This document shows positions 15,179 to 57,306 of a stretch of 64,000 nucleotides of DNA, piece after piece. The stretch lies in contig NZ_JYNS01000003.1 in NCBI RefSeq assembly GCF_000934725.1, forward strand, positions 1-64,000. Direction: 5' to 3'. Origin of the DNA: Methyloterricola oryzae (GTDB lineage Bacteria > Pseudomonadota > Gammaproteobacteria > Methylococcales > Methylococcaceae). Under the pieces are notes generated by a model. That model saw nothing but the letters and a program-made list of their open reading frames with translations. It did not search any database and was not told the origin of the DNA. The first letter of the stretch is position 1. Every line of letters begins with the position of its first letter. Position numbers and translations under genes: made by a program.

Positions 15179-15199
15179 GCAGACAGCCTTTTCCGAATG

Positions 15200-17091: not shown

Positions 17092-17103
17092 GTCGCCGCC
17101 TCC

Positions 17104-20064: not shown

Positions 20065-20158
20065 GTTTGCTCTCCCTCACCAAAGTTGCTCACCACGCGA
20101 GGACTTTCTCTTGTCTTCGGCCCGACGTGGTACCGAATCGCTTCCGCGACGCCGCGAC

Positions 20159-28960: not shown

Positions 28961-31900
28961 ATGGATTTACCACTCATCCTGGCAGGACCGATTCTGCGGC
29001 GGACGGAACCGAATCTGGTATCGGTCTGGCTGGCCCTGCGGGAATCAGCGGACATCACGCTGTCCATCTGGGATGGCCTGCAGAGCCACAGCGAATCCAT
29101 GCCGACTGCCCTCGCGAGCAGCGCGCCGCAGCGCAGCACCCGCCTGGGCAAGGCGCTGCATCTGGCGGTGGTCACGCTGGTTACGCCAGCACCCGGGCTG
29201 CAGCCGGGCCGCAATTACGCCTACGATCTCGCCATCAAGACCCAGGGCAACCCCCAGCCACAGACCTTGAACTCGTTGGGGCTGCTGGAGGACAAGCCGT
29301 TCAACTGGGACGATCCCGCCAGCTTTGCCAGCGCCCATCTGGCCCTGGGCTATGGCCAGGGGCAGTTGCCCAGCTTCGCCCTCCCGCCCAAGGATCTGGA
29401 TCAACTGCGCCTGGTTTATGGCTCCTGCCGGTTGCCCTGCAATGATCATCTGGACGCCATGACCTGGATCGATGATCTCATCAGCCGGAGCCGCCCGGAA
29501 ACTCCAGGCGCGGACGCCGATAGCCATGCCCTGAACCGCCCGCACCAACTGGTTCTGGGCGGCGATCAGATCTACGCCGATGACGTCGCGCCCGAGCAGA
29601 TCTGGATCATCAACCGTCTGGCGCACCTGCTCATCAGCGGCGCCGGGGAGCACGGCATTCCCGGCCTGTCGGCGGGCCCCGTGGAAAACCTTTCGCTCCC
29701 GGCCAACCGGGTCAAAACCTTGATCCCGGATGAGGGGCCGACTCAGCAGCGACTGGCTGACAGCCTGGAACTGGGTTACGCGGCAAGCGATGAAACCGCG
29801 ACGGGCGAAGTGCGGTTGCCCGCGGACTTGGCGCATTTTCCTCCGGGTGGCCGGCTGGACCTGCTGCAGATCGAAGCGCGCATGACGAGCAGCGACGGCC
29901 ACAGTCATCTGCTCTCCTTCGGCGAGTTCGCCGCGATGCATATCCTGGTCTGGTCCAATGCCTGTTGGCTGCCCGAGTTCTGGCCGGCAAAGGCCGATCT
30001 GCTCAGCGGGCGCGTCCAGAGTGCAAACCGCCCTGAGACGGTCGCCATCACCGCCCGCACCCTGGCCGACACCCAAGCCTGGGGAGACAACAGTTTCACC
30101 TTCCCGTCGGCGATAAGGCCCGCGGTTCCGGACAAGACCAGTAGTCCCCCGGACATCGAGTGGCAGGACTATCTCCTGCAGAAGCTGGCGGAAGCCACCG
30201 GCTTGGCGGCGCTGACCCGGCGCGGCGAGGTCATGGCGTCGGACTTGAAGGACGTCAAGGCGAAGTCGGATGCCGAATTCGACTGGCAAGACCATATTTC
30301 CAAGGTCTTGCACGATGCCGTCCAGAAGGAATTCCCGGCCTGGGCCGATGACCTGCCCGCACCGCCAGGCTTTACCCTGCGCAACCGCAAGGGCGGCGCC
30401 GACAGCCTGGCGCCCCTGGCCAAACGCCTGGAAGAGTCCACCGAGACGGGCCTCTGGATGAGCCTGGTCAATCTGGACCGGCATCATCGCCTGCTGCGCC
30501 GCTTCGTCATGGGCCTGCCCAAGGTCCGGCGCGCGCTGGCCAATGTGCCCACCTACATGATCTTCGACGATCACGATGTCACTGACGACTGGTTCCTCAA
30601 TCCGGTGTGGTGCAAGCAGGTGCTGGAAGCGCCGCTGGGAAGGCAGATCGTCCGCAATGGCATGGCCAGCTACGCGGTGTTCCAGGATTGGGGCAACAAT
30701 CCCCTGCGCTACCAGGATGACGATCCGCAGGCCGCGCCGCCGCAGCTGCTCAAACAGATCGCCGCGCTGTTCGCCGATTCCACCGGGGAATGGCCGGTCG
30801 CCGCCGCAGCCACGGAAATCGACAAGCTCCTGGGCCTGAATGAGCGCCAGCAGCTCACCCTGAATGCCACCAACCCGCCCATGCGCTGGCATTTCCGGGT
30901 CGACGGTCCGGCCCATGTGCTAGCGGCTCTGGACAATCGCACCCGCCGCAGCTACGTCACCCGCCAAGGCCCGCCCGGGAATGTGGCCAAGGAGGCCCAG
31001 GCCGAACAGATCCCGGCCGCCCCCCTGGACAACGGCCGCCTGCTGATCTTGGTTGCGCCGCTGCAGGTGCTGGCTCCGTCCGTGTTCGACGAAATCGTCG
31101 CCCCGGCCTCCTACCGGCTGTTCGATGCCTTTGGCGCCGCACCCGACAAGCCCAAGGGTCGCGGCGGTGAGTTCATGGTCGGCACCAACCCGGACGCCAT
31201 CGAAGGCTGGGCGCTGGATGTCGCCACCTTCGAGGCCCTGCTCAAGCGGCTCGCGGCCCACAAGCGGGTTCTGCTGCTGTCGGGCGATGTGCACTACAGC
31301 GCGGCCACCCAGATGAGCTACTGGCTAAAGGACCAGGCGGAACCCGCCCGACTGGTTCAGTTCACCAGCAGCGGCATCAAGAACGTAATGCCCCAGTACC
31401 TGACCGTGGTCGACCGCAGCCTGGCATTTGCCCAGGAATTGATACGCTCCGACGTGGGTGCGGACCGCATGGGCTGGAACGATGGCGCCGCCAACGCCAT
31501 CGAGTTTGCCGAGGGCAGGAAGGAAGCCGATCTGCCGTCGGTGCTGCGCAAGCGCATGCGCCGCAAGCCGGCCATGCTGCCCACCCACGGCTGGCCGGAA
31601 CAGAAAGAACCCAGCGACCCGCAGCGGCGATACAGCCGGGTACGCTCCGATCACCGGCCCGACTGGTCATGGTGCCTGAGCCCCGTGTTCGACCTGCGTC
31701 CCGACGCCGAGCGGCCGGAGGCGATGCGTCCAAAGGGCATCGACACGACGCCGGACATCGCCAAGCAGATCAAGGCCGGCGCTGATCCCGCCCAGGCCTA
31801 TCGGCGCATCGCCGCCCGCCATCAGGCGCAGTTGGACAAGCTGGGTAATGCCCGTCAGCTCCTGTTCCGCAGCAATATTGCCCTGGTGCGCTTTGAGCGG

Positions 31901-32125
31901 GTGGACGGCAAACTCTGGGCCGTCCAGGAGCTTTACAGCGTGGTCCCCGACCCCTCGGCCAATCCAGTGACGAATCCGCCCTTTAAGGAAGAGGGCGTCC
32001 TGGATTTCGGCAAACTGCCCAAACCCCAATGCCTGGTGCTGCAACGGGCATCCCTGGACCCGCTTGCTGACGAGCAGCGCCCCGAGGCCAAGCCCCTGAA
32101 AAGCGGGCTTGCCGAACCCGCCTGA
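28961..32125 (+). CDS. PhoD-like metallophosphoesterase, first gene of the giant-protein operon
   Basis: The 1054-residue product starts with an N-terminal beta domain (LILAGPILRRTEPNLVSVWL) followed by the metal sites of the PhoD family: YGSCR at about 153-157, LGGDQIYADD at 199-208, YMIFDDHDVTDDWF near 531-545 and LLLSGDVHYSAA near 770-780. About 320 residues separate the second and third sites. No signal peptide is seen, unlike secreted PhoD enzymes. It would hydrolyse a phosphoester; the substrate is unknown. The ATG at 28961 follows GAGAAGAGG; the upstream ATG at 28784 would add unlikely residues. Next gene starts 10 bp downstream. Confidence 0.85.
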   Translation: MDLPLILAGPILRRTEPNLVSVWLALRESADITLSIWDGLQSHSESMPTALASSAPQRSTRLGKALHLAVVTLVTPAPGLQPGRNYAYDLAIKTQGNPQPQTLNSLGLLEDKPFNWDDPASFASAHLALGYGQGQLPSFALPPKDLDQLRLVYGSCRLPCNDHLDAMTWIDDLISRSRPETPGADADSHALNRPHQLVLGGDQIYADDVAPEQIWIINRLAHLLISGAGEHGIPGLSAGPVENLSLPANRVKTLIPDEGPTQQRLADSLELGYAASDETATGEVRLPADLAHFPPGGRLDLLQIEARMTSSDGHSHLLSFGEFAAMHILVWSNACWLPEFWPAKADLLSGRVQSANRPETVAITARTLADTQAWGDNSFTFPSAIRPAVPDKTSSPPDIEWQDYLLQKLAEATGLAALTRRGEVMASDLKDVKAKSDAEFDWQDHISKVLHDAVQKEFPAWADDLPAPPGFTLRNRKGGADSLAPLAKRLEESTETGLWMSLVNLDRHHRLLRRFVMGLPKVRRALANVPTYMIFDDHDVTDDWFLNPVWCKQVLEAPLGRQIVRNGMASYAVFQDWGNNPLRYQDDDPQAAPPQLLKQIAALFADSTGEWPVAAAATEIDKLLGLNERQQLTLNATNPPMRWHFRVDGPAHVLAALDNRTRRSYVTRQGPPGNVAKEAQAEQIPAAPLDNGRLLILVAPLQVLAPSVFDEIVAPASYRLFDAFGAAPDKPKGRGGEFMVGTNPDAIEGWALDVATFEALLKRLAAHKRVLLLSGDVHYSAATQMSYWLKDQAEPARLVQFTSSGIKNVMPQYLTVVDRSLAFAQELIRSDVGADRMGWNDGAANAIEFAEGRKEADLPSVLRKRMRRKPAMLPTHGWPEQKEPSDPQRRYSRVRSDHRPDWSWCLSPVFDLRPDAERPEAMRPKGIDTTPDIAKQIKAGADPAQAYRRIAARHQAQLDKLGNARQLLFRSNIALVRFERVDGKLWAVQELYSVVPDPSANPVTNPPFKEEGVLDFGKLPKPQCLVLQRASLDPLADEQRPEAKPLKSGLAEPA

Positions 32126-32135
32126 GGACCTGCCC

Positions 32136-35100
32136 ATGGCCAGCGAACTGAATTTCGTGCAGGGACTGCTCAGTGGAGCAACCGACTTTACCGGCTGGGC
32201 CGAAGAGGTCCTGGCCGATGCGGAGGCCCGCGAAGCCCTGCTGAAAGACCTGGGACTGGAAGGCATCGGCAGCAGTGTGGCGCCCCATGTGCCGGACGAT
32301 CTGAAGCAGCGGCTCAAGGCCTTCGGCGAGCTCGATCATCCCCAGTTGACGGATTATCGGGAGGCCCTGCAGGACATGCACGCGGTTCTGGAGTGCTTCC
32401 GCGAGATGCTGCGGGTGGGCGAGTTGGACGACGTCGCCTTCCTGGAGGAAACCTTCGATTTCATGCTGAACGTGCTGGCCAGCAGCTATGCGCGGGACCG
32501 CGCGCCCAAGGTCTATTTCATCGCCCAGGTCATCCAGTTTGCCTTCGACAACCTGTCCCATTATGGCGAAGGCGATAATTCCTTCACCCGCGCCTTCTGG
32601 GGACTGGTCGGCCTGTTCGGCCACCTGCTGACGGGTCCTGGCGATGCCCACTGGGAACTTGTGACCGAAGAGGAAGCCGGCAACTGGTCTTTCGGGCTGC
32701 GCATCCTGGCGGGCCTGCTGGTTTTCTTCGACAAGCTCGGTCCCAAGATCGGCCTCGGCCGCGCCGGCGACCTGCCCACCATCGACGTGCTCTACGGCTG
32801 GGACAGCCTGCCTCAACTCTGGCCCAAGCCGGCAGACGCCAGCCAGCCACCGCGCAAGCCCATCGCCGACAGCGTGTCCGGCCGCATGCTCACGGTGCGG
32901 TTGTGGAACCAGTCCCGCGACGACCTGGCCAGCGCCGACGAAGCCGCCGCCGCGACCCTCAGCCTGGCCCTGGTGCCGCAAGACCAGGGGGGACGCGGCC
33001 TGTTCATCAGTCTCGGCGGCGACTACCGGACGATCTATCCCATCAACGACCGCTGGGAACTGGTGACGAAGCTGGATGGCCGCTCCAACCTGAGCGTTCT
33101 GCTCAGCGCCGACCACCCAAGCGACCTCGCCGGGCCTGACCTGAAGGACAACGCCATCGTGTTCGGCATCCGTTCGCGCCCAAAGCCGGACGGAACGCCA
33201 CTGCTGGCCTTGCCGGATGCCGAAGGCACGCACCTGGCCATCGGACAATGGCTGAGCTTCGTGTCGGTTAACGGGGGCCAGTTTGAAATCCAGACCCTGT
33301 TCCAGGATTGCAGCTTGCAATTGGATACCTCCAAGCTCGACGGTTTCCTGTCCTCTCTGATCCCCGGCGGCACGCAGAAGACGGACTTCAGCTTCGGCGC
33401 AGGCTGGTCGACCCGGCGCGGCTTTTTCACCACCGGCCAGTTGCCGTCCCTGAGTCCAAAGACGTCCCCAGCCGGGCAGCCCAAGCCGCTGGCCCTGGCG
33501 AAAAGCGCAGCGCCAGTCCCGGAAGCCGATCCCTTCGACATGGCGCAACTGGAATCCCTCGCAGCCCGCCGCGATGGCCGCGGCGTGGAAATTCCGCTGC
33601 TGACCCGCAAATCCCTGCCAGGTCTCACGATCGACGAGACCGCCATCCGCATCCGCATGCGCGGCTCGTCGGAGGAGCCCGCCATCGCGGTGGCAGCCGA
33701 ACTGTCGCTGACCGCCAGCATCGGCCCGGTCATCGTCCATGTGGAAGACCTCGGCCTCCAGTTCGACCTGGCGCGTTTCAAGGACACCTCGCGCGCCAAT
33801 CTGCATTTCGCCCATCTGGACTTGGACCTGAGCACGCCCACGGCCATCGGCCTGCTGATCGATACCCCGCAGATTCGCGGTGGCGGCTTCCTGAAACTGG
33901 ACGCGGACGCGCACCAGTACGCCGGGATGTTCGACCTCACCCTGTCGGACCTCACCACGGTCAAGGCCATCGGCCTGCTCAACACGCGCTTGCCGGACGG
34001 CTCTCGCGGTTACTCCCTGGTGGTCATCATCACGGCCCAGGGCTTCGCCCCCATTCAGCTGGGCATGGGCTTCACGCTGACCGGCATCGGCGGCCTGCTG
34101 GGCATCCATCGCAGCGCACGCACGGAACAACTGCGGGAGGGCATCCGCAACGGCACCCTGGGTTCCGTGCTGTTCCCGCAGGATCCCATCCGCCAGGCGG
34201 CACGCATCCTCAGCGACCTGGGAAGGGTCTTCCCGCCGGTGCGTGGCCGTCACGCCTTTGGCCCCATGGTGGAGATTTCCTGGGGCACGCCGCGCTTGCT
34301 GAGCCTGCAACTGGCAATCCTGCTGGAACTGCCGGAACCGGTCCGGTTGCTGGTGCTGGGTCGGCTGGCGGCGGACCTGCCCAGCGCGGATCATTCCCTG
34401 GTGCGGCTGCGCATGGACGCCATCGGCCTGGTCGATTTCCAACGGGACAGCGTCTCACTGGATGCCACCCTCTACGACTCCCGCATCCTCGATTTCGTCC
34501 TCACCGGCGACATGGCCCTGCGCGCCCAATGGGGCCGGCAGCCCACATTCCTGCTGGCGGTGGGCGGCTTCAACCCGCGCTTTCTGCCGCCGGCGGACTT
34601 CCCCAGACTGGGCAGGCTGGCACTGAGCCTGGGGGACACCGGGAGCCTGCGCCTGCGCTTCGAGGCCTACCTGGCGCTGACCTCCAACACGGTCCAGTTC
34701 GGTGCCGCGGTTGACCTGCGTTACCACGCGGGCAAACTGGAACTGGCCGGGCACCTGGGATTCGACGCCCTGTTCCAGTTCGAACCCTTCGCCTTCGTCG
34801 CCGACCTGGGCGCCATGGTGGTGGTGAAATACCGCGGCTACACCTTGCTCGGCATCAAGCTGGACATGACGGTCTCGGGTCCCGCGCCTTGGTTCGTGCG
34901 CGGCACGGCCCGCTTCAAGATCCTGTTCTTCAGCAAGTCGGTGGACTTCAGCCACCGTTTCGGCCATCAGGCTCCACCGCCTTTGCCCCCCGCCATCGAC
35001 GTGCTGCCCCTGCTCGTGCAAGCCGCCGCCGACCGGCGCAACTGGAGCACAGCTCTGCCCGCTGGCGTCGCGTCCACCGTCAGTTTCGCGGTAGCCGCAG

Positions 35101-35609
35101 GCGAGGATGCGCGGGTCCACCCCCTGGCGGCGGTCAGCCTGCATCAGCGCGTGGTTCCACTTCGAACCCATATTTCCCGCTTCGGCAACTCCCCCTTGGC
35201 GGGTGGTCCGCAGCGATTCGACCTGGAAGCCCGCAGCGGCGCCGCCGAGCTGCGCCACAGCTATCGCCAAGACGCCTTCGCCCCCGCCCAGTTCAATGCC
35301 ATGAGCGACGATGAAAAGCTCAGCAGCCCTGCCTTCGCCCAATACGACGCGGGGCTGGCCCTGGGCGATGGGGACGTGTCCTTTGGCGAGTTGTTCGCCG
35401 ATGACGCCGGCTTTGACTATGAAACCCTGATCATTGACCCGTCCCGCCCCGCGGGCACGCCCGCCCCGAAAGAAAAAGGCTATGCCCTGTTGCAAGCCAA
35501 CCTGGATGCCCTCATCGACCTGGGAGCCGCGGGACAGGCGGCGGCGAGGCGGCGTGCAGGACTATCGGCCGCGGCAGGTCCGGCCGGTCGAATGGCAGTC
35601 AGGCGCTGA
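32136..35609 (+). CDS. Large beta-rich protein, DUF6603-like
   Basis: The 1157-residue product has a helical N-terminal ~220 residues and then a long beta-rich region with the segments GMGFTLTGIGGLLGIHR, FGPMVEISWGTP, LPEPVRLLVLGRLAADLP and FAFVADLGAMVVVKYRGY. From memory this matches the uncharacterised family DUF6603; no search was run. No signal peptide or membrane helix is clear. The C-terminus is disordered, rich in Ala/Pro. The ATG at 32136 follows GAGG, 10 bp behind the PhoD-like gene. Function unknown. Confidence 0.8.
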   Translation: MASELNFVQGLLSGATDFTGWAEEVLADAEAREALLKDLGLEGIGSSVAPHVPDDLKQRLKAFGELDHPQLTDYREALQDMHAVLECFREMLRVGELDDVAFLEETFDFMLNVLASSYARDRAPKVYFIAQVIQFAFDNLSHYGEGDNSFTRAFWGLVGLFGHLLTGPGDAHWELVTEEEAGNWSFGLRILAGLLVFFDKLGPKIGLGRAGDLPTIDVLYGWDSLPQLWPKPADASQPPRKPIADSVSGRMLTVRLWNQSRDDLASADEAAAATLSLALVPQDQGGRGLFISLGGDYRTIYPINDRWELVTKLDGRSNLSVLLSADHPSDLAGPDLKDNAIVFGIRSRPKPDGTPLLALPDAEGTHLAIGQWLSFVSVNGGQFEIQTLFQDCSLQLDTSKLDGFLSSLIPGGTQKTDFSFGAGWSTRRGFFTTGQLPSLSPKTSPAGQPKPLALAKSAAPVPEADPFDMAQLESLAARRDGRGVEIPLLTRKSLPGLTIDETAIRIRMRGSSEEPAIAVAAELSLTASIGPVIVHVEDLGLQFDLARFKDTSRANLHFAHLDLDLSTPTAIGLLIDTPQIRGGGFLKLDADAHQYAGMFDLTLSDLTTVKAIGLLNTRLPDGSRGYSLVVIITAQGFAPIQLGMGFTLTGIGGLLGIHRSARTEQLREGIRNGTLGSVLFPQDPIRQAARILSDLGRVFPPVRGRHAFGPMVEISWGTPRLLSLQLAILLELPEPVRLLVLGRLAADLPSADHSLVRLRMDAIGLVDFQRDSVSLDATLYDSRILDFVLTGDMALRAQWGRQPTFLLAVGGFNPRFLPPADFPRLGRLALSLGDTGSLRLRFEAYLALTSNTVQFGAAVDLRYHAGKLELAGHLGFDALFQFEPFAFVADLGAMVVVKYRGYTLLGIKLDMTVSGPAPWFVRGTARFKILFFSKSVDFSHRFGHQAPPPLPPAIDVLPLLVQAAADRRNWSTALPAGVASTVSFAVAAGEDARVHPLAAVSLHQRVVPLRTHISRFGNSPLAGGPQRFDLEARSGAAELRHSYRQDAFAPAQFNAMSDDEKLSSPAFAQYDAGLALGDGDVSFGELFADDAGFDYETLIIDPSRPAGTPAPKEKGYALLQANLDALIDLGAAGQAAARRRAGLSAAAGPAGRMAVRR

Positions 35610-35619
35610 GGAGAACCCC

Positions 35620-38217
35620 ATGGCTGAGCAAGCAAAGGCGCGATTTCTCACCTATTCCTGGCTGCGCCAGGGTTTGTTGGCCGGTCTCGGAAACGACCAG
35701 GCCCTGGTGCTCAAGCGCGACCACCTGAGCCTGCCCCTGACGGTCTCGGTCAATGCTCAGGCCACCTCGGTCAACCTGGATCTCTATGGTCCGGGCGATG
35801 TCACCGGCATCGATCGCAGCGAGATCATCCGCATCGAGCCGGCTGTCGGGAACGGCGGCTTCGAACCCAACCTGTTTCCGCTGATCGAGTTCGACCGGCC
35901 TGATTTTCCCTGGCTGTTCACGCCCGCGGCGGCGGGGGCCGGTAGCACTCTGTCGCCCTGGCTTTGCCTGGTCGCCATACCCCAGGCGCGAGCGCGCCTC
36001 GCCGTCGGCGGCGAACAGCTCCTGCCCAGGCTCACGTGCCCGCGCGGCGAACTGCCCGATCTGCGGGAAGCCTGGGCCTGGGCCCACGCCCAGGTCACGC
36101 CGGCGGCCGCCAGTTCCGATGTGCCCGGCGCCAGCGAGCTGAGCGCCATCCTTGCCAGCCAGCCCCAGCGCAATCTGTCCCGCCTCATCTGCCCCCGGCG
36201 CCTGCAAGCGGAGACCGGGTATCTGGCCTGCCTGGTGCCCGTCTACGAATGCGGGCGCAGGAGCGGTCTGGGCCTGCCGCCGGTGGACGACCAGGCCGAT
36301 CCGCTGGCCCACGCCTGGACTTTCGACTCAAGGGACCCGAGTGAGGTGGAACTGCCGGTTTACTTCCACTGGTACTTCAACACCGGATCGAAAGGCGATT
36401 TCGAGCTATTAGCCAGCCAGCTCAAACCGCTGGATGCGTCGCCGAGCTTGGGCGTGCAGCCCATCGATGTGAGCGCGCCGGGCTGGGGCATGCCGTCCAG
36501 CACGGCGCAGCCGGTCTTGGACTTCCAGGGTCCTTTGCTGGCCGACGGCGCCATCGAAGGCCGCGGTCCCGCGCCTTCCTTGCAGGAAGCCTTGCGCGCA
36601 CTGCTCAACCTCAATGCGGACGCCGGCGCTGCGCCAACCCTCACCCCTCCCCTTTACGGCCAGCATTACCTTGGGCTGCATGCGGTGCCCGCGCTCAGCG
36701 ACCCGCCCGGCTGGTTTGCCGAGTTGAACCTGGACCCGCGCTACCGGGCCGCCGCCGGCCTGGGCGCGGATGTGATACGCCGTGAGCAGGACAGGCTGGT
36801 GGCAGAAGCCTGGGAACAGCTGGCCGCCCATTATCAGCGCACGGGCAATGCCACACTGGCGGGTTCCGGAGCACAGCCTGAATCCCTCGCGCAGACTCTC
36901 GCCCGGCCACGGCCCCTGGAGCGCATCCAACGCGCGCGCCTGGCGGCTGAGCTGAGCGAAAGCCTGAAGCACCGTCAGCTGTCCGGCGTGAACGCAGCGC
37001 GCATGTTGCAGCTGACCGGGATGCAGCCAGAGGAAAAGGGATTCGCGCCGCCCGAGACGTTCTCCCGGCTCCTGACGGACAGCCAGTCCGCGGCTTTCCG
37101 CCGGCTGACCCGGAGCGGAGGCCCTCTATCGGGGCGCTTGCGGCGCCTGGGTCAGGCATCTCCGGGGCAGGCCTATTTATACGACGGCCCGGCGAATCCG
37201 CAGGAGCCGGCGATGGCTCTGCAGGTGAGGGCGCAATTTCGTGCGCTGGATGCCCGCGGCAGCCTCCTGCGCGAGCGCATAAAGCCAGGCGACGGGGTAC
37301 GCGCGTCCCTGGAAAAAGAACACCTGGCGGCGGACAGCGTGGAGTCGCCGGGCTTCGCACCGCGTTTCGAGCGCCCCATGTACGAGACCTTGCGCACGGC
37401 CCACCGTGACCTACTCCTGCCCGGCTTTCAAAGCGTGGCCAACGAATCCGTCACTCTGCTGCAGGCCAACCAGCGCTTCATCGATGCCTATATGGCCGGA
37501 CTCAACCACGAAATGGGCCGCGAACTGCTTTGGCGCGGTTATCCTTCGCCGGCCGATGCCACCTTCTTCACCCGTTTCTGGGACCGCACGGGCTGCATGG
37601 GCGCGACGGCGGACGATATCCAGCCCTTGGCGGACTGGCATTTGGCGAGCCGCCTGGGTGATCACGGCACCGGCAGCAGTTCGGCGCCCCTGGTTCTTCT
37701 GGTTCGCGGAGAACTCATGCGGCGCTATCCGCGCGCCCTGGTCTATGCGGTCCAGGCGGGCAAGGACCCTTTAACTCAGGAGCGCAGACCCCTAGGCCCA
37801 GAAGCATGGCCCAGTTTCCGCGCCAGCCTGGATGTGGATCAACTGCTGTTCGGCTTCGACCTGAAAGCCAGCCAGGTCAGCGGCGGCGGGCCAAGCTCCG
37901 CCGATTTGGGCTGGTTCTTCATCATTCAGGAACAACCCACCGAGCCCCGCTTCGGGCTGGACGAAGCCGCCCCCGGGCCCCACGGGAAGTTCACCGCGGC
38001 CCAAGCGAGCTGGCGAAACCTGTCCTGGGCCCATCTCGACGCGGAGCCGGCCGACGGCCGTCCACGGCCTTACCTGTGGCTGGAGACGAGCTTCAAGGAC
38101 TTGCTCCTGGAGCGCGCCCAATGGGGCAAGAGCTCCGCGGCAATGGCCTTCATCGTCCGCCAGAAGCCATTTCGGGTCGCCATCCACGGCAGCGTCTGGG
38201 TGCCGCCTCCCGCTTAG
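35620..38217 (+). CDS. Hypothetical 865-residue protein, third gene of operon
   Basis: Starts with MAEQAKARFLTYSWLRQGLL after GGAGA (ATG at 35620, 10 bp after the previous stop). Recognisable landmarks are a beta-rich first 300 residues (SLPLTVSVN, IEPAVGNGGFEPNLFPLIEF, LPVYFHWYFNTG), an Arg/Gln-rich helical middle, and a C-terminal region WRGYPSPADATFFTRFW with RGELMRRYPRALVYAV. I do not recognise the family. No signal peptide or catalytic motif is evident. Its place in the tight operon suggests a partner of the neighbours. Confidence 0.75.
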   Translation: MAEQAKARFLTYSWLRQGLLAGLGNDQALVLKRDHLSLPLTVSVNAQATSVNLDLYGPGDVTGIDRSEIIRIEPAVGNGGFEPNLFPLIEFDRPDFPWLFTPAAAGAGSTLSPWLCLVAIPQARARLAVGGEQLLPRLTCPRGELPDLREAWAWAHAQVTPAAASSDVPGASELSAILASQPQRNLSRLICPRRLQAETGYLACLVPVYECGRRSGLGLPPVDDQADPLAHAWTFDSRDPSEVELPVYFHWYFNTGSKGDFELLASQLKPLDASPSLGVQPIDVSAPGWGMPSSTAQPVLDFQGPLLADGAIEGRGPAPSLQEALRALLNLNADAGAAPTLTPPLYGQHYLGLHAVPALSDPPGWFAELNLDPRYRAAAGLGADVIRREQDRLVAEAWEQLAAHYQRTGNATLAGSGAQPESLAQTLARPRPLERIQRARLAAELSESLKHRQLSGVNAARMLQLTGMQPEEKGFAPPETFSRLLTDSQSAAFRRLTRSGGPLSGRLRRLGQASPGQAYLYDGPANPQEPAMALQVRAQFRALDARGSLLRERIKPGDGVRASLEKEHLAADSVESPGFAPRFERPMYETLRTAHRDLLLPGFQSVANESVTLLQANQRFIDAYMAGLNHEMGRELLWRGYPSPADATFFTRFWDRTGCMGATADDIQPLADWHLASRLGDHGTGSSSAPLVLLVRGELMRRYPRALVYAVQAGKDPLTQERRPLGPEAWPSFRASLDVDQLLFGFDLKASQVSGGGPSSADLGWFFIIQEQPTEPRFGLDEAAPGPHGKFTAAQASWRNLSWAHLDAEPADGRPRPYLWLETSFKDLLLERAQWGKSSAAMAFIVRQKPFRVAIHGSVWVPPPA

Positions 38218-38233
38218 ACTCAGGAGCGAAAGC

Positions 38234-39049
38234 ATGTCGTACCTCAATTCCGAGCGAACTCGGTTCCAGCAGCAAAAGCAGGCAGCCGAGGCCCGCATCG
38301 CCGCCCTTCAGCCGCAATTGAGCCAATTGGAGCAATTGCGCCAGCAAAGGTCCGCCCTGAACCCTGCCTTGCAACAGGCGCAGGCGGCGGTTGCCCAGAG
38401 TCAGGGCGACTTTGACGCCAAACAGCAGCAGGTGGCGGACATCGAGCAGTCCATCCTGGATGCCCAGGAACCGGATCAGGAACTCCCCCGCCGCGGCGGC
38501 ATCCCGATACGCCGGATTTCGCCCGTCCTGCAGGAACTGAAGCGCAAGCTAGTACAGGCCAAGGCGGAAGCCAATGCGGCCAAGGTCCGGCTCGATCAGG
38601 CCCGGGCGCAACTGGCGAGCGTGCAGGCGGAAGCGCAGCGGCTCGACGGTTTGATCGCAGGGATCATCAACTCGGGCCTCGATTCGCAGCTGAAGCTGGC
38701 TCAGGACGACTCTGCCCTGGCTGGCAGCCAGTTGGCGGCACTGGAGGCCGATCTGGCCCTGTTGATGCAGGATCCCCTGGACCGCCCTGCGCTGGAGCAG
38801 ATCGCGGGGGTCTGGAGTGACAGGGCGGGAGAATTGGACCTGCGCATATTCGACCTCGAGGCACAGGTGTATGAGATGACACGCGCCCGGGCCGCCCTGG
38901 TCGCCGAAGCCACCGCCGTTCAGGCCAGCCTCGCCAGCGCCATGGAGGAGTTCAATTCGGCCAGCGCAGCGCTTGCGGATGCCGAATCGGCCTATCAGGA
39001 ACTTCAGAATGAGCTGAACAGTATCCCCGACGGAGGCGAAATTCCATGA
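38234..39049 (+). CDS. Coiled-coil protein, fourth gene of operon
   Basis: The 271-residue product is nearly all heptad-like helix (RFQQQKQAAEARIAALQPQL, QAAVAQSQGDFDAKQQQVAD, then long Ala/Gln/Glu runs), broken near residue 80 by a basic, proline-containing segment RRGGIPIRRISPVL. The ATG at 38234 follows CAGGAG. It overlaps the next gene by four bases (ATGA), so the two are translationally coupled; the next protein also has coiled coils, so a shared bundle is plausible. Function unknown. Confidence 0.8.
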   Translation: MSYLNSERTRFQQQKQAAEARIAALQPQLSQLEQLRQQRSALNPALQQAQAAVAQSQGDFDAKQQQVADIEQSILDAQEPDQELPRRGGIPIRRISPVLQELKRKLVQAKAEANAAKVRLDQARAQLASVQAEAQRLDGLIAGIINSGLDSQLKLAQDDSALAGSQLAALEADLALLMQDPLDRPALEQIAGVWSDRAGELDLRIFDLEAQVYEMTRARAALVAEATAVQASLASAMEEFNSASAALADAESAYQELQNELNSIPDGGEIP

Positions 39050-42000
39050 GAAACATCGGTGATGGCTCGATCCCGCCGAGCCGCCGTCCCGGGCTGGTCA
39101 AGCTGATCAGACGCAATGATCCGCTGGTCATGCAATTGGTCGCGGCCCGCCGGCGCCTGCAGCGCGCCACCGCGGCACGGGATCGCCTGCAGGCGCGCAG
39201 CACCGCCTTGGCTGCCGAAATCGCCAGCCTGGACCAGCGCATAAGCGCCAATAACACGGAGGCCGAACGCCTGCGCCCCGATGCCTTGGAGTTCGCCCAG
39301 GCGCGCGACGCCGCCACCGCCAGGCTGCTGGGACGGCCGGCCCAGGATGGCCCGGTATCCACCGCCCTGCCCCTGCTGCTGCTTCCGGTACGGCTGGAGA
39401 CCCGCTTCATGACCCGGGCGGAAGGCACCGAGTTGTGGCTGCGCATCTACCCCGACGATATCCACGTGACGGACCATGAGCCTCGCCTAACGGAGATGGA
39501 GCGCCAATGGGGCGAGAATTACTGGAACCAGTTGCAATCCGGTGTTGGCGGCGATCTGGCGCAACGCGCGTGGCAGCAGCTGCAAGGTCAGTTCGGACCG
39601 CGCCGCGCCGCCTGGATCGCGCGCTCGACCCGGCCCGGCAGCCCGCAGGCGGAAATACGCGGTACTCCCTGGGGACGTGCACCGCAGGCTGAAGCCCTGC
39701 CGGACCGCTTCGTGGCTGTCGGCTTCAGCGACGAACGGCCGGTGTTCACCTCCTGGGGCCGGACGATTCCCGACACCCTGGATGTGGGGCTCGATCCCGA
39801 TGCCGAGGAGGACGAATCTCCCGCAGGCATGCCGCCGGTAAGCAAGGGTCTGCGCTGGCTGGTGGATTTCGACGAGGCCGTGGCCCAGGGCATGGCCATG
39901 CGCATTCCGCTGGGCCCTGAGCTGGCCAGCCGCGGACTCGACCGCCTGCTGGTCCTGGGCCTCAAAACCAGCATCGGCGATTCCAGCACCGTCCAGCTGC
40001 AGGCGCTGCTGGAATCGCACCGCTACAGCAGCGGGCTGGACCTCCTGGCGGCGGGCACGCCCACCAATAATTCGGAAGCGGAAGCCTCCGCCTTCAACTC
40101 CCAGGCGGAATCCGATACCCCCGTCTGGATGGACGAAAGCGCCAGCTTGCCCGCGGATTCACGGGGCGGGCGGCTCGCCCGGGCGCTGGGCCTTGAGTCG
40201 GACGCGTTTGCCGCGCTGAAAGGCGCCAAAGAAGCGGAGCACGAACCTTGCCGCATGATGCAGCAACTGCTCTGGGAGGTACTGTCCGCCCCGCTGAAGA
40301 GCGATATGATTGCTTCCGGAGGCGATGGCGCCGCCCTAGGCCGCCATTTCGCCGAATTCGTCCGTGCCATGGGGCCCCTGGCGCCGCTTAGAGTCGGCAG
40401 CCAGCCCTACGGTATCCTGCCGGTCACCAGCCTCATGCGCTGGAATGTGGGCGAGCAGGACAGTGCCGGAAAGCTGGCCGCCTGGTGGCGCAGCAACCGC
40501 CTGAACTGGAGGGGCATCGCCGCCAGCACGAAGGCGTTCGACGACAGCGAAGGCGCGCTCGCGCCATTGGATCATGGGGCGGGCAGCCGGCAGGAGATCG
40601 TCAGTGGCGAACGCAAGGAGAAGCCTCCCGAGCCGACCGCTTTCCTGTCCTTCCTAAAAGGCCTAGTGCTACACGCCCTCTCCCGAGCCGATGCGCGGGC
40701 CCAAGCGGCGCTGGCGGCCCTGCCGGAGGAAACCCGGCTGCGGCTGGCCGCCGACGCGCTGGACGCGCTGGCATATCGGGCCGACGCCTGGGCCACCTCG
40801 CTGGCGACTTCCAGGCTGTCCCAGTTGCGGGAGAGTCAAGCAAACGGACTGTGCATCGGGGCCTATGGGTGGCTGGAGCAACTGCGCCCGGCGCCGCCCC
40901 TGACACCAGTGGATTCAGACGGTGCGCCGCTGTGGAAAGCTCCGGCCAATCACGGCCACTTCCAGGCGCCCTCCCTGGCCCAGGCGGCCGCGGCCTGTCT
41001 GTTGCGCAGCGGCTTCGTGGATGACGAACTGGCGCCCCGGGACGAGGCGAATGCCTTCGCCGTGGACCTGTCCTCGGCGCGGGTGCGGCGCTCCCTCTGG
41101 CTACTGGATGGCGTGCGCCAGGGTCAATCCTTGTCCACCCTGCTGGGCTACCGTTTCGAGCGCACCCTGCACGAACGAGGGCTGGACGTTTATATCGACC
41201 GATTCCGGCGTCTGCTGGCGCTGTCGGGGGGTTCCCGGCTGAGCGAACTGCTCTCCCGGCTCAGGGCCATTCAAGGGGAGTGGCAGGTTTTGCAGAGCCT
41301 GGAACTCAAGGTGGAAGCCCTGACCGCGGAGCAGACAGCGGCGCGCGGGGCGCAGGCGCAACTGCAGGCCGAGCTGGCCCTGCATCAGTCCGTCATAGAC
41401 ACCATCCAGCATCTGCCGGCACGCGCGCAGTTACTTCAAAACGAGGCTGCGCAGTTCCTGCAGCAGGCGGCGCAGCTCAATGCCCCCCGGACTCCCAGTT
41501 CGACCCAGGCCGGACAGCTGCGCATCCTCGAACCGGCGGATGTGGAAGCCCAGGAGCAGACGCGCCAGACCCTGGAAGATCAAGCCGCGAACAAGCAACT
41601 CGAAGCCAGCGCGGTAAGCGCCCAATTCAATGCCGCGGCTGCGGGCCTGACCCAGGCCCGAGGCGCGCTGGCAATGCTGCAGGACCCTGCCCGGCCCGCA
41701 TCGGTGACGGCACTGGCCGGGCGCATCGCTGCGCTGGACAACGCGCTCGTAGAATCCAAAGCGACGGTAAAAGGGCTACAAGGGCAACGGATCCCGGAAC
41801 GCAGGCAAGCCATCGTGGCGGAACTGACCGAGCAGATCCGGAAGATCTGGAATGATGCAGGCGCCGCGGCCGTTGGCAGGATCACCGATGGACTGGAACT
41901 GCGGCGTCGCTGGCAGCTGGCCCACGCCGAGGCCGGCGCGCCGCACTGGTCGGTCGCGACGATCCCCTTCGGCGCGGCCGAGCTGGGCTTCCCCGGAGTG

Positions 42001-44178
42001 GGCTCGGCCGAGTACCAGAGACTCCTGGCGGTTCTGGCGGATTTGGACGATCTGGTAGACGGGGTCAGCGACGTCTTGACAGCGGAAAGCGTCTACCAAC
42101 TGGTCCAGGGCAATCCCCTGCGCGCCGGAGCCAGCCTCGAAGCCATCGCCACGGGCTCGGTGCCTCCGCCAGACCTGGAGATGGTGCGGACACCCCGCAG
42201 TGGCGTGAGCCTCTGCCACCGCTTCATCTGCCTGATGCCCCTGGGCGGAACCGGCACCAGCGCGATATGGCCGGGCAGCGAGAACCCCCGTGTGCTGGCG
42301 GAACCCCGCCTGAATGCCTGGCTCGCGCAGCAACTGCCGGACCCCGCCAAGATCGCCTGCCGGGTGGTGTACCGACGGGATCAGACCGCATTCGCGGCCC
42401 GGGAGGTGACGCTTCTGGAACTTGGGCTTTCGCCGCTGGATTACCTGTACTTGACGGAGGGAGACGAGAAGCCGCAGCAATCAGAGCTGGAGCAGCGGGT
42501 GGCCGAGGCGGCGCTGCGCCAGCTTCCAGCCGGGGTTCCCGCGGATGCCGCTTTGGAACTGGGGTTCGGCCGCGGCGAAAACTGGCCGCTGGAGCGGCGC
42601 AGCTTCGCCGAGTTCCTGGAAATGCTGCGCGCCTTACGCCAGCTTGTATTGTCGGCCCGGCCGCTTCTGACCCAGGATCTGGCTCTGCCCGGCGCGGCAG
42701 ACACGACGGATGAGCTGGACCTGGCGGAACTGCGCCAGCGCATCGCTAAAGCTGTCCAGGCTTTACAGACGCGGCGCGATGCCTTGGAAGCGCTGCTGGC
42801 CTTGCCTGAACCATCTTCCGAACAGCTGCGCTTGGCGCTGCTCGCCGCCTCTGAGCTGGGGGTCGCGGGAACGATGCCCGCCGCGGTGCTGGACCCGGAG
42901 GCAGCCCTACCCGCGCTGCGTCAACAGTCGGAATCAGCCCTGCGCACGCTGGATGAGCGCCTGCGGCAGCTGGCGGAAGCAGGGTCCGCGGAGAACGCCG
43001 ATCCGAACACCGCCTTTCAGGCGGAGGCGTCGCGGCTGGATCAGGTGTTTGGCGCCGAGTTCCGCGTTCTGCCCTTGATTCGGTTCCGTGACGCGACGCT
43101 TCAGTCCAGTTTCGACGACAGTCTCGGCCTTCAGGACGGAAAGCCCCTCGCGGCTACCGACTGGGCCCAGACCGCAGGCAAGGTGCGGGACGGCCTCTCC
43201 CGCTGGAACACGGTCCAGTTGTACGGCGAAACCCTGGGGGTAGCGGCTGACCTTCGAGTCGGTCAGCTTCCCTACAAGGCCGGTGATCGCTGGATCGCCT
43301 TGCCCTTTGCCGGCGCCCTGCCTCAGGGCCGGCTTTCCCTGGTCGTCCAAAGCCCAACGGCAGACCCGATCCGTCTGGAGACCGGCGTAGCTGGCCTGTT
43401 GGTGGAAGAATGGACCGAAATCGTCCCGCACCAGCAGGAGCAGACCGGGTTGGGATTTCATTTCGACCAACCCAACGGCGCGCCGCCAAACAGCCTGCTG
43501 CTGGCGGTGGCGGGCGATAATCGACCCGTCTGGGATCTGGACAGCCTCACCACCATCCTCAATGAGACCCTGGACCTGGCCAAGATCCGCACCGCACCAG
43601 CCGAAGGCGCGCGTGAAGAGGTCTGGATTCGCGACAGCCTGCCGGGGCGCGCGCGCCTGTTCGCCGACAACGATGCCTGGAGTTGGACCCATCGCAATCC
43701 AAGACCACCCAACAGCCGCGCGGCGCATCAATCGGCTCTGGCTGCGGGCAAACATCAGCACTTTTTCGACAACGCGGCAGATCCCCTGTATCCCGCCGCG
43801 GGCGACCGCTTGTTCGTCTATGTCTATCTGGACCCCGCGCACCCGCCCCGGACAGTCATGCTGCAATGGAATTGCAGCGACAAACCGGACCAGGCGGATT
43901 GGGAGCACCGCGCCTACTGGGGCGAAAACCTGATCGACTGGGGCCAGGACGGCACGCCCAGCCGACGGCCACAAGGACCCTTGCCACCGCTAGGACGCTG
44001 GTGCCGCCTGGAAGTGCCGGCGAACGAGGTTGGGGTGGCGGGCCGGCCAGTATCCGGGATGGCCTTTAGCTTGTTCGATGGCCGCGCCAGCTGGGGCACG
44101 GCGGGACGCCTGACAGGCCACGATGGGCCGCAGGCGGCCACATGGGTCAGTTACGAATCCGTGAATGCAGGGGGTTGA
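39046..44178 (+). CDS. Giant 1710-residue protein with coiled coils and a C-terminal lectin-like module
   Basis: Regions in order: a short coiled coil (~30-70), an N-terminal domain with LPLLLLPVRLETRF and LWLRIYPDDIHVTDHEP, a region with VGSQPYGILPVTSLMRW near 460, a long coiled coil (~745-930), further helical parts, and a C-terminal beta-sandwich (about 1580-1700) with VYVYLDPAHPPRTVMLQWN and HRAYWGENLIDWGQDGT then GRWCRLEVPANEVGV. That last module resembles, from memory, a lectin/laminin-G-like module found in planctomycete DUF1553-type proteins. No signal peptide, no catalytic motif recognised. The ATG overlaps the previous stop. Function unknown. Confidence 0.8.
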   Translation: MRNIGDGSIPPSRRPGLVKLIRRNDPLVMQLVAARRRLQRATAARDRLQARSTALAAEIASLDQRISANNTEAERLRPDALEFAQARDAATARLLGRPAQDGPVSTALPLLLLPVRLETRFMTRAEGTELWLRIYPDDIHVTDHEPRLTEMERQWGENYWNQLQSGVGGDLAQRAWQQLQGQFGPRRAAWIARSTRPGSPQAEIRGTPWGRAPQAEALPDRFVAVGFSDERPVFTSWGRTIPDTLDVGLDPDAEEDESPAGMPPVSKGLRWLVDFDEAVAQGMAMRIPLGPELASRGLDRLLVLGLKTSIGDSSTVQLQALLESHRYSSGLDLLAAGTPTNNSEAEASAFNSQAESDTPVWMDESASLPADSRGGRLARALGLESDAFAALKGAKEAEHEPCRMMQQLLWEVLSAPLKSDMIASGGDGAALGRHFAEFVRAMGPLAPLRVGSQPYGILPVTSLMRWNVGEQDSAGKLAAWWRSNRLNWRGIAASTKAFDDSEGALAPLDHGAGSRQEIVSGERKEKPPEPTAFLSFLKGLVLHALSRADARAQAALAALPEETRLRLAADALDALAYRADAWATSLATSRLSQLRESQANGLCIGAYGWLEQLRPAPPLTPVDSDGAPLWKAPANHGHFQAPSLAQAAAACLLRSGFVDDELAPRDEANAFAVDLSSARVRRSLWLLDGVRQGQSLSTLLGYRFERTLHERGLDVYIDRFRRLLALSGGSRLSELLSRLRAIQGEWQVLQSLELKVEALTAEQTAARGAQAQLQAELALHQSVIDTIQHLPARAQLLQNEAAQFLQQAAQLNAPRTPSSTQAGQLRILEPADVEAQEQTRQTLEDQAANKQLEASAVSAQFNAAAAGLTQARGALAMLQDPARPASVTALAGRIAALDNALVESKATVKGLQGQRIPERRQAIVAELTEQIRKIWNDAGAAAVGRITDGLELRRRWQLAHAEAGAPHWSVATIPFGAAELGFPGVGSAEYQRLLAVLADLDDLVDGVSDVLTAESVYQLVQGNPLRAGASLEAIATGSVPPPDLEMVRTPRSGVSLCHRFICLMPLGGTGTSAIWPGSENPRVLAEPRLNAWLAQQLPDPAKIACRVVYRRDQTAFAAREVTLLELGLSPLDYLYLTEGDEKPQQSELEQRVAEAALRQLPAGVPADAALELGFGRGENWPLERRSFAEFLEMLRALRQLVLSARPLLTQDLALPGAADTTDELDLAELRQRIAKAVQALQTRRDALEALLALPEPSSEQLRLALLAASELGVAGTMPAAVLDPEAALPALRQQSESALRTLDERLRQLAEAGSAENADPNTAFQAEASRLDQVFGAEFRVLPLIRFRDATLQSSFDDSLGLQDGKPLAATDWAQTAGKVRDGLSRWNTVQLYGETLGVAADLRVGQLPYKAGDRWIALPFAGALPQGRLSLVVQSPTADPIRLETGVAGLLVEEWTEIVPHQQEQTGLGFHFDQPNGAPPNSLLLAVAGDNRPVWDLDSLTTILNETLDLAKIRTAPAEGAREEVWIRDSLPGRARLFADNDAWSWTHRNPRPPNSRAAHQSALAAGKHQHFFDNAADPLYPAAGDRLFVYVYLDPAHPPRTVMLQWNCSDKPDQADWEHRAYWGENLIDWGQDGTPSRRPQGPLPPLGRWCRLEVPANEVGVAGRPVSGMAFSLFDGRASWGTAGRLTGHDGPQAATWVSYESVNAGG

Positions 44179-44180
44179 AC

Positions 44181-45896
44181 ATGGCAACGGTCGGTTTCGC
44201 GATTACCAATGGCACCCAAGGAACCGGCCTTGCCGGCGAACTGCAGGCGCGCTTCCATGATCCCCTGTGGACCCTGGGCAGACAGTGGCAGCTGGGTGAG
44301 TTCCGCGGCGAGGACTGCGGTTCACCGACGGCCGTCCATGTCGAAATGGAGGAAGTCGCCGTCAATGGTTACCGCCCCGGAGGCCACGGTGAACTGACGG
44401 ATTACGCGCCGGCCTCGCTGCCCCTGGAAACGATGGTGGAACGGGAAACGGCGGACCTTGAGCGAGCTGTCAGCTGGCGCGAGTCCGCGGAAACCGGGCA
44501 GCACTTGCTGCGCATCCTGAACGGCCTCGGAGCTGCTCCCGCCCACTACACGGACCCGCTGCTGCGCTCCTATGGCCTGAAAGCACCCGACCCCGCCGTT
44601 CTAGATGCCTTGGACGCGGACAGCCGTCGCATGATGGCGGTCCTGGCGGGCCGGGTCGTGGACGGCGCGCTCCTGCGGCAGGACATCCAGGCAACTTCCA
44701 TCGCAGCAGTGATCGAGAAGCTGGCCGCGGCGGGGCTGGCGACTCCTGTCACTGCGGCCGACGCCGCGCCGCTGACGCAGGGACTTATGGACTGGCTGCG
44801 CTGGTGCGAAAACCGGCTCAGCCGCTCGGCGCCAGAGCAGGACGCCTGGCAGCCGGAACGCATGGAATATCGCTTCGACCTGGCTGTGCGCACTGCCACA
44901 GACACCCTCGAGCTCAAGGCCGAGGAATACTACAGCGGCGAGTTGGACTGGTACGCGGTGGACATGGAACCGCCCACAGGGCCCCAAGCGCGGTTGAACC
45001 CCGCCCTACGGAATCTCGACCTGCTGCCCGTGCCGGTCAGCTATCACGGCATGCCCTTGGCGCGTTTCTGGGAAATGGAAGATGCCCGCATCAACTTCGC
45101 CGCAGTCGAGGCTGCCCCCAACGATCTGCCGAGACGGCTGCTGCTCAAATTCGCCCTGGAGTTCAGCAATGACTGGTTCGTGGTCCCGGTAGAGCTACCG
45201 GTAGGCTCTCTCAGCCGCGTGCGCAGGCTCGTGGTCAGCAACAGCTTCGGCGAGCGCCATCTGATTTCCCCCGCCGCCGAGACCGACCAGGCTCCGGGGC
45301 GATGGCGTGCCTTTTCCATCAGCGGCGACGGCCAGAACTGGTTCTACCTGCCCGCGGCGCTGGCCAAGGGACTGCAAGGCAAGACTCTGGAAGAAATCTG
45401 GCTGCAGCGCGACGAGGGCGCCAACCTGGGCTGGGCTGTGCAGACGCAGATGCCGAGCCTTGCGGGTGGCACTCTCAACCGAAGTGAACTCTCGGACAGC
45501 AGCGCCGAGGAGATTCTGCCCGCGCCTCTGGAAGGCACCCGCGCCTACCGCCTCGGCACCCGCGTGCCCGCCTACTGGAAACCCTTGCTGCCGGCCAGGC
45601 TGGACTCCGGCATGCGGCTGCGCCAGGCGCGCCTGCAGACCGCGGGCGATGATCTGCCGACCATCATGCGACTGGACCAGTTAATGCCCATGGGCCGCGA
45701 CCTGGATTTGTACGACGAAGAAGTCCCAGCCGAAGGCGTGCAGGTCACTCGAGCCTACCAATACGCCCGCTGGTGCGACGGATCGACCCACCTCTGGATC
45801 AGTCGCCAGAAGCGACCCGGGCGGGGCGACGCTGCGTCAGGCCTGGTATTCGATCTACTGGAGTTAGGCGGAGGAACCAATCGGCCTCGGCCCTAA
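44181..45896 (+). CDS. Hypothetical 571-residue protein, last gene of operon
   Basis: Starts at ATG 44181, two bases after the previous stop, behind GCAGGGGG. The N-terminus has a well-formed motif FHDPLWTLGRQWQLGEFRGE that I have seen only in uncharacterised proteins. The middle is helical with YYSGELDWYAVDM, followed by a beta-rich half (LLKFALEFSNDWFVVPVELP, WRAFSISGDGQNWFYLP), and the end reads YQYARWCDGSTHLWISRQKR. Family and function are unknown. Confidence 0.75.
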   Translation: MATVGFAITNGTQGTGLAGELQARFHDPLWTLGRQWQLGEFRGEDCGSPTAVHVEMEEVAVNGYRPGGHGELTDYAPASLPLETMVERETADLERAVSWRESAETGQHLLRILNGLGAAPAHYTDPLLRSYGLKAPDPAVLDALDADSRRMMAVLAGRVVDGALLRQDIQATSIAAVIEKLAAAGLATPVTAADAAPLTQGLMDWLRWCENRLSRSAPEQDAWQPERMEYRFDLAVRTATDTLELKAEEYYSGELDWYAVDMEPPTGPQARLNPALRNLDLLPVPVSYHGMPLARFWEMEDARINFAAVEAAPNDLPRRLLLKFALEFSNDWFVVPVELPVGSLSRVRRLVVSNSFGERHLISPAAETDQAPGRWRAFSISGDGQNWFYLPAALAKGLQGKTLEEIWLQRDEGANLGWAVQTQMPSLAGGTLNRSELSDSSAEEILPAPLEGTRAYRLGTRVPAYWKPLLPARLDSGMRLRQARLQTAGDDLPTIMRLDQLMPMGRDLDLYDEEVPAEGVQVTRAYQYARWCDGSTHLWISRQKRPGRGDAASGLVFDLLELGGGTNRPRP

Positions 45897-47402: not shown

Positions 47403-47447
47403 TCAGTGGGCTCCTGGGTACATGTGGGGCGGAAATGCCGCGAATTT

Positions 47448-48578: not shown

Positions 48579-48583
48579 TGGTT

Positions 48584-48751
48584 TTACTGGCACCTTGATT
48601 CTAAAATTTCAAACTTTCTCCGTCGCAGGCGCGAGCGCTCCAAATCGATGAGGTAGGCCATGTGGTTGAACGACAAATAAACCTGCCAACAACCGCCTGA
48701 CGAATCATGAACTTTTATGACGGAAAACCTCCGGCGCTCTCTAACAACCAT
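48584..48751 (-). CDS. Possible small protein between GT and polymerase genes
   Basis: A 55-codon frame (MVVRERRRFSVIKVHDSSGG...) fills the 190-bp gap between two genes on the same strand and ends near the next start. It may extend upstream into the polymerase gene. No motif or ribosome site supports it strongly; it may be a non-coding gap. Confidence 0.2.
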   Translation of the reverse strand: MVVRERRRFSVIKVHDSSGGCWQVYLSFNHMAYLIDLERSRLRRRKFEILESRCQ

Positions 48752-48771
48752 GTTACACAGCCCGTGATTCC

Positions 48772-50127: not shown

Positions 50128-50474
50128 GGCTCGAGGGAAGGTTGGACTGTACGCGTCATCGCACGACTTGACCGGCTGGATTTCGTACCACCAACCTCAA
50201 AAGAATAGCGATAGAGTTACGTAGTGTAGCAGGCATCTTGCTTTACCTTGTGTGCATGCACTTCGGCGGCCTTACCGAACAGCTTGCCGATTCACAAAGA
50301 GCACTAGTAATTTCACCTATTTGAATTAGGTGCCTAAAGGCGTTCCAGCATCAAAAGCCATCCCGCTTGAGCAAGTTTTGGCGCCTGCGCCTGGCACACA
50401 TCAACGTGGAGCGGGGCGCGCGAGGCTAGATTTAGCAAACCAATGAAAGTTCAATTGGTTCAAGCCTATGCAAT
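50128..50474. other. Intergenic region, AT-rich
   Basis: About 350 bp between the polymerase-like gene and hemY, probably with the polymerase promoter. CACCTA (50314-50319) and TAGGTG (50327-50332) form a small inverted repeat. I see no gene. Confidence 0.4.
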
Positions 50475-54761: not shown

Positions 54762-54805
54762 TGTAACAGATCGCGCCTGACGACCAAGGTTTGGCGCAGG
54801 TGGAT

Positions 54806-56612: not shown

Positions 56613-56741
56613 TGGCTCCCTCGGGATTCCCTGTCAGGTCGATGGATACGGTTCAGTTTAGACAGACGCCGGCACTTCTCGCCCTACCTGGGGCGGGAAA
56701 AAACCGATATGATGCAAATTTGAAAATAACGAGGGACACCC

Positions 56742-57227: not shown

Positions 57228-57306
57228 ACTAGCACTCTAGGAGCAGCCAGCCGCAGGGATGTGAAGGCCGGTTAAGCGCCTCAGTCCGTGATCTGGCCCC
57301 CGGCGT

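Follow-up and report, generated by a model that had tools for sequence, protein, structure and literature searches.

The stretch of DNA analysed here, 64,000 nucleotides from the genome of Methyloterricola oryzae (the window), carries an operon of six genes, g1 to g6. This operon very probably belongs to a conserved gene system in which a hydrolase and a protein of the DUF6603 family form an exchangeable cassette. The constant core is taken to be g3, g5, and g6, joined by the coiled-coil g4 in the window lineage, and the cassette to be g1 and g2, one hydrolase with its own DUF6603 protein. Bacteria with this system appear to swap a lipid-, protein- or cell-wall-cutting enzyme on one common protein complex. 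No paper describing the operon system was found in the libraries and open papers searched. Pfam records no function for DUF6603 (PF20248), and no paper in the open literature searched names this family, its link to the operon or its pairing with hydrolases.

The operon lies on the + strand at window positions 28961-45896, where six co-directional open reading frames (ORFs) extend over ~17 kb without internal stops. The spacing from g1 to g6 is 10, 10, 16, -4, and 2 bp. These sizes and gaps agree with a preliminary description made from the sequence alone, as do the identities that it gave to the first two products. g1 (28961..32125, 1054 aa) encodes a PhoD-like metallophosphoesterase, the occupant of the slot, which matches Pfam PhoD (PF09423) at 31.8 bits against a cut-off of 27. 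It adjoins the DUF6603 gene as in relatives. g2 (32136..35609, 1157 aa) encodes the partner of this hydrolase and matches nearly the whole PF20248 profile at 426 bits, again against a cut-off of 27, with the DUF6603 domain at 33609..35312. The core proteins g3 (35620..38217, 865 aa), g5 (39046..44178, 1710 aa), and g6 (44181..45896, 571 aa) have no above-cut-off match in Pfam, NCBIfam, PHROGs or PADLOC, and g4 (38234..39049, 271 aa) shows only coiled-coil similarities in these databases. ORF starts agree with the N-termini of homologues (e.g. LPLILAGPILRR in g1). Homologues exist for all six, with g1-g3, g5, and g6 found across many phyla and g4 near Nitrospira only. As each ORF has homologues and the gene order is conserved, the six are more than chance ORFs.

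A g6 alignment, based on two short motifs, was used to scan 84,980 species genomes and returned 472 g6 relatives, a lower bound, spread over at least 12 phyla. Eighty loci were fetched. Together with plasmid records, these place the system in Nitrospirota, Verrucomicrobiota, Acidobacteriota, Actinomycetota, Bacillota, Cyanobacteriota, Myxococcota, Chloroflexota, Bacteroidota, Pseudomonadota, Gemmatimonadota, and Goldiibacteriota, with haloarchaea as archaeal hosts. Gene order was read with profiles on six-frame translations, counting loci with a visible flank. g5 lies 5' of g6 in 70/70 loci and g3 lies 5' of g5 in 61/61, and the order g3-g5-g6 is kept in all 66 loci where it could be read. g2 was detected in 41 of 55 loci and precedes g3 in each of the 43 with both visible. 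The arrangement in Leptolyngbya differs, being g3-g5-g6-g1-g2. All 12 g4 homologues among the loci sit between g3 and g5, and the gene is limited to the window, G013 (which also carries g2), Nitrospira, and relatives. The preliminary description had envisaged one joint system of ancient, constrained families and had proposed co-occurrence in conserved order as the check; the order conserved across phyla supports this. Its six-gene unit stands in part: g2, g3, g5, and g6 recur in order, but g1 is a swappable slot and g4 is confined to the Nitrospira/window lineage.

The exchangeability of the slot is seen in the genes 5' of DUF6603. Among 50 DUF6603 genes, a count that includes one Leptolyngbya locus twice, the 5' neighbour on the same strand is a hydrolase in 37. 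Six unrelated families occur, namely PhoD-like (14), phospholipase D (PLD, 7), S8 subtilisin (7), M64-type (6), NAL1-like (2), and peptidoglycan amidase (1). The spacing between hydrolase and DUF6603 genes is mostly -4 to 20 bp, and a 4-bp overlap is frequent. g1 orthologues lie 11-17 kb 5' of g6 on the same strand in 15/30 other genomes and adjoin it on the 3' side in one. Several genomes have no PhoD-like g1 orthologue and carry other enzymes 5' of g2, and g1 was rejected as a fixed member of the operon. Nitrospira defluvii has a PLD and an M64-type peptidase in the slot, other Nitrospiraceae have a subtilisin and an amidase, and an Anaerolineaceae genome has NAL1-like peptidases. Larkinella carries three M64-type genes in tandem and Sphaerisporangium one. 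In Nitrospira, two hydrolase-DUF6603 pairs can be stacked ahead of a single core, as PLD-DUF6603-S8-DUF6603, PhoD-DUF6603-S8-DUF6603 or PLD-DUF6603-M64-DUF6603. A BLAST label of 'NAL' for the Nitrospira S8 enzymes was overruled by Pfam.

The PhoD metal-site motifs of g1 are intact, with GSC at residue 154, GGDQIYADD at 200, DDHD at 536, and SGDVH at 774, and these motifs are present in the window protein and in the two relatives checked. The exact PhoD motifs were not seen in the Streptomyces PhoD-like protein (L028). The checked members of other families carry the catalytic motifs HxKxxxxD (PLD), HExxHSFGLGDEY (M64), and DSG/HGTH/GTSMA (S8). S8 and NAL1-like enzymes, whose catalytic parts are unrelated, have a common C-terminal domain of ~110 aa (hhalign 96%, E 2.6e-9, comparing the subtilisin L185:3012-5447 with the NAL1-like L175:3124-6203), which is a candidate docking domain. 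By family, the targets of the recognised slot enzymes are lipid, protein, phosphoester or peptidoglycan. In one locus, L194 (G528), an amidase-DUF6603 and a PhoD-DUF6603 cassette stand on either side of a small peptidoglycan-binding/CHAP gene.

Enzymes that are digestive in kind, in hosts that are mostly environmental bacteria and haloarchaea, could also be displayed by an extracellular scaffold that scavenges nutrients, using phosphatases, lipases, and proteases to digest environmental polymers without antagonism. That no immunity gene was noticed would suit such a scaffold. However, one genome has a peptidoglycan amidase in the slot, no transporters or nutrient regulators recur beside the operon, and no downstream gene is conserved across relatives. 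Nutrient scavenging is unlikely.

PLD and subtilisin-like peptidases also occur as defence effectors, and the slot holds both types. With the patchy, phylum-mixed distribution and the swappable effectors, this resembles an intracellular defence system in which the core would act as a sensor of infection and DUF6603 would release the hydrolase, or activate it, against the host's own envelope. Such a system seems improbable here. PADLOC gave no match to a model of known anti-phage defence beyond a weak similarity of the g4 coiled coil, and no NTPase or nucleotide-signalling domain was found. The recognised slot enzymes include no nuclease or NADase, and the peptidoglycan amidase and the adjoining CHAP/peptidoglycan-binding gene work outside the cytoplasm. 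The neighbours of the operon in the window are chemotaxis, haem, and glycosyltransferase genes.

The second member of the cassette follows the first. In a DUF6603 tree labelled by partner, 7 changes are needed (minimum 5), compared with a mean of 20.5 after shuffling, and 0/200 shuffles were as low. The tree groups copies by enzyme across species and not by genome, showing at the level of sequence that DUF6603 is inherited together with its enzyme. A comparison of G500 with G498 (N. defluvii) illustrates this. Their cores are 70-73% identical and their PLD/DUF6603 pairs 92/81%, whereas in the second cassette, where S8 stands against M64, the DUF6603 proteins are only 41% identical. In G570, which retains S8, DUF6603 is 79% identical. 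In G499 a PhoD-DUF6603 pair (L210:6085-10436) lies ~1 Mb away from the core; its DUF6603 is truncated, and the core has no g2. This pair, with a recombinase-like gene nearby, is a possible orphan cassette.

Unrelated enzymes swap at one site together with a cognate partner, the pattern by which a polymorphic effector/adaptor system is recognised. Effectors of the type VI secretion system (T6SS) can have cognate adaptors. The operon resembles T6SS-type effector-adaptor cassettes in that a swappable enzyme stands by a co-inherited cognate partner gene ahead of a constant apparatus. It differs in the size (>1,000 aa) and beta-rich character of the DUF6603 partner, in having no known secretion apparatus, and in having no recognised immunity gene. 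One-to-one pairing, translational overlap, and co-inheritance would also fit a DUF6603 protein that acts as an inhibitor or immunity protein and silences its hydrolase, with the remaining genes forming a polymorphic toxin system. This is unlikely, as >1,000 aa would be a large size for an immunity protein and DUF6603 keeps its beta-meander with partners whose folds are unrelated. Inhibitors usually change fold along with the toxin.

The structural model of the DUF6603 region (pLDDT 80.6, pTM 0.63) predicts a run of long antiparallel strands, a meander whose strand faces alternate between hydrophobic and polar. This alternation scores z = 9.3 (26 strands) where the control, g6, scores z = 0.5, and the same face values were found in haloarchaeal, Bacillota, Actinomycetota, and other copies. 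The best Foldseek match is the PapC usher pore (E 3.1e-4, prob 1.00, TM 0.19/0.28). VIA matched ApoB at Z 17.1, with 320 residues aligned at rmsd 10.4, and porins at Z about 14 with an rmsd of about 12. Given the low TM-scores and high rmsd of these matches, the model indicates that DUF6603 shares a meander topology with ushers, porins, and ApoB but not a superposable fold. Its long antiparallel meander with alternating faces is thus reminiscent of outer-membrane beta-barrels and ushers and of the ApoB beta-belt. It differs from them in the low TM-scores, in having no signal peptide, and in being present in monoderms and archaea (Neobacillus, Streptomyces, and haloarchaea), which lack an outer membrane. 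A hydropathy test showed no hydrophobic N-terminus for DUF6603. Since the same faces occur in haloarchaeal, Bacillota, and Actinomycetota copies, DUF6603 is not an outer-membrane protein of diderms only. The protein may act as a pore, as a belt that binds lipid or as a carrier in solution.

Searches of PDB sequences with g2, g3, g5, and g6 profiles returned nothing significant. g5 has conserved blocks at residues ~105-470, which include LETRF and QPYGILPV, and at 554-728 and 984-1517. It ends in a recurring mobile module of ~140 aa that belongs to no assigned family (residues ~1546-1705, window 43681..44160), which is also found inside g3 of Nodosilinea. The preliminary description had called part of g5 lectin-like, which no database confirmed; the C-terminus is this mobile module. 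The g6 model (pLDDT 78.6, pTM 0.78) mixes helices and beta-sheet, and no match stands out for its fold in the PDB or among viral models (BFVD), a negative that leaves room for a fold shared with tail proteins. A candidate Fn3-like fold was dropped as uninformative, the best VIA Z being only 4.7. Residues 1-46 of g6 have pLDDT < 50. This region takes in most of the motif ARFHDPLWTLGRQWQLGEFRGEDCGSP (residues 23-49, 44247..44327), which includes invariant alignment columns. Being near-invariant yet of mostly low confidence in the monomer model, the motif may fold on a partner, which suggests a candidate partner-binding segment.

In line with the preliminary description, neither a signal peptide nor a hydrophobic N-terminus emerged from the hydropathy test, which covered the six proteins, 20 slot enzymes, and core orthologues. 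Haloarchaeal relatives are annotated in their records with lamin-tail and BGTF-surface parts, and Streptomyces relatives with VCBS and peptidoglycan-binding domains, the latter on g1. An atypically secreted or intracellular assembly, as first proposed, would fit both the lack of signal peptides and the domains of extracellular type seen in relatives. As the operon holds no export gene, export is assumed by default, and we infer that the proteins leave the cell as exported particles. Export followed by action on other cells or matrix is put at slightly less than an even chance.

The products of the six genes probably form a physical complex. In the mechanism proposed, the amphipathic beta-sheet of DUF6603 would hold or carry its own hydrolase and bring it to a docking place on the core of g3, g5, and g6. 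The particle so assembled would exit by a route independent of signal peptides, and the core would recognise a surface through variable appended modules, in the window lineage the C-terminal module of g5. The hydrolase would then attack a neighbouring cell or matrix at its lipid, protein, phosphoester or peptidoglycan, the enzyme of the window operon being a predicted PhoD-like phosphodiesterase. A modular multiprotein particle of this kind, with DUF6603 as cognate carrier of a swappable hydrolase that attacks envelope or matrix, is a tentative reading, held at just under even odds. That it represents an unrecognised class of modular delivery machine, found in most bacterial phyla and haloarchaea, whose DUF6603 partner moves with the hydrolase between strains, is possible but a little more doubtful. 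If true, it would add a machine for delivery or display in which the enzyme slot is swappable, give DUF6603 a role as hydrolase partner, and provide a scaffold whose cargo nature already exchanges.

Several observations count against the proposed particle. The operon contains no export gene. In 13/50 cases the gene 5' of DUF6603 belongs to no recognised enzyme family or lies on the opposite strand. Many slot cases are Nitrospira near-copies, so the number of independent slot events is below 37. The slot enzymes were not found to have one docking domain in common; only the S8 and NAL1-like enzymes share such a domain. An antagonistic toxin usually comes with an immunity gene, but none is visible, and no recurrent small gene was noticed between enzyme and DUF6603.

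The preliminary description had named a known secretion or tail module as the finding that would count against a new system, and no matches to known systems emerged. Tc toxin complexes are giant, multi-subunit, devoid of classical signal peptides, and carry an enzyme. The operon is similar in these respects, but no Tc (TcA/TcB/TcC) domain was found in the six proteins with Pfam or NCBIfam. Extracellular contractile injection systems (eCIS; PMC12923769) are alike in being multi-gene, with large signal-peptide-free proteins and attached binding modules, and in occurring in environmental bacteria and archaea; the C-terminal module of g5 is also found in some eCIS-locus proteins of relatives. The operon differs in that sheath, tube, baseplate, spike, AAA ATPase, and tape measure are all missing. 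No sheath, tube, baseplate or AAA family scored above cut-off in the six proteins with Pfam, NCBIfam or PHROGs, where g4 gave only coiled-coil hits put down to chance.

The operon proteins could instead serve an eCIS encoded elsewhere in the genome, as accessory proteins or as cargo that it loads or fires. The window's own genome has an eCIS on another contig (G000:C2:10000-29400, L164), with sheath, gp19 tube, eCIS_core, Pvc16_N, AAA, Baseplate_J, Tail_P2_I, and DUF6519. A sheath match was found in 27/34 operon genomes compared with 29/101 relatives, and within Nitrospiraceae in 27/33 operon genomes compared with 17/85 others. In Citricoccus the operon lies ~23 kb from the sheath, and the g5 C-terminal module is common to both kinds of locus. 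However, seven of the 34 operon genomes, including both Neobacillus and both haloarchaea, have no sheath match (their completeness is not stated). Sheath also occurs in 5/9 of the Nitrospiraceae genomes listed that lack the operon and reach at least 3.4 Mb, which indicates that genome size and lineage confound the association. The strong co-occurrence first suggested by 27/34 shrinks once genome size is considered. Operon and eCIS are usually unlinked, and the g2, g3, g5, and g6 profiles revealed no homology of the core to eCIS-locus proteins beyond the shared g5 module. An eCIS cargo set is an unlikely explanation. In two contractile-injection-like loci of relatives (L016:7737-12275, L017:6337-11295), proteins of 1512-1652 aa carry 1-2 copies of the g5 C-terminal module and match no Pfam family.

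In the g6 tree phyla are intermixed, and the window copy clusters with G013 and Nitrospira while the genome's divergent second copy (about 364-380 kb on G000:C2) clusters with Devosia. As the tree mixes phyla and the two copies of one genome group apart, the sequences are consistent with horizontal transfer. Same-family copies also occur in G013, G021 (two), and G025. Next to the second copy (L009/L010) are genes for a protein with a TPS secretion domain, for a CHAT-TPR protein, and for an autotransporter. A phage origin was rejected: 2.9 million viral contigs contain no g6 relatives, PHROGs gave only a coiled coil, and g6 has no viral fold match. A single contig labelled as an unverified Bacteriophage from human faeces (L032, MT835531.1) encodes g5 and g6, and given the lack of relatives in viral contigs it may be a mislabelled bacterial contig.

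Within the window, chemotaxis genes (methyl-accepting chemotaxis proteins, CheA-like) lie 5' of the operon at 12926-22342, and glycosyltransferase genes, probably for exopolysaccharide, and haem genes lie 3' at 46215-63533, neither with an obvious link to it. In Nitrospira, fragments of the g6 C-terminus follow an intact g6 (G500:C51:57102-57284, G614:C23:30396-30764, L046), one with a stop codon; these are duplication remnants or displaced tips. The expectation that the families are tied to one system holds for the core, whose order is fixed, but not wholly for DUF6603, distant forms of which also occur outside the operon in other giant proteins. Three such loci (L204:2242-14077, L209:3077-14974, L206:4482-12714) encode proteins of 1,500-3,270 aa. 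In L204 and L209 a protein of ~690 aa with weak similarity to g3 (E about 1e-6) comes after the DUF6603 protein, and in L206 the gene 5' of DUF6603 is, by eye, a putative metallo-beta-lactamase-type hydrolase. These loci may represent another type of this system.

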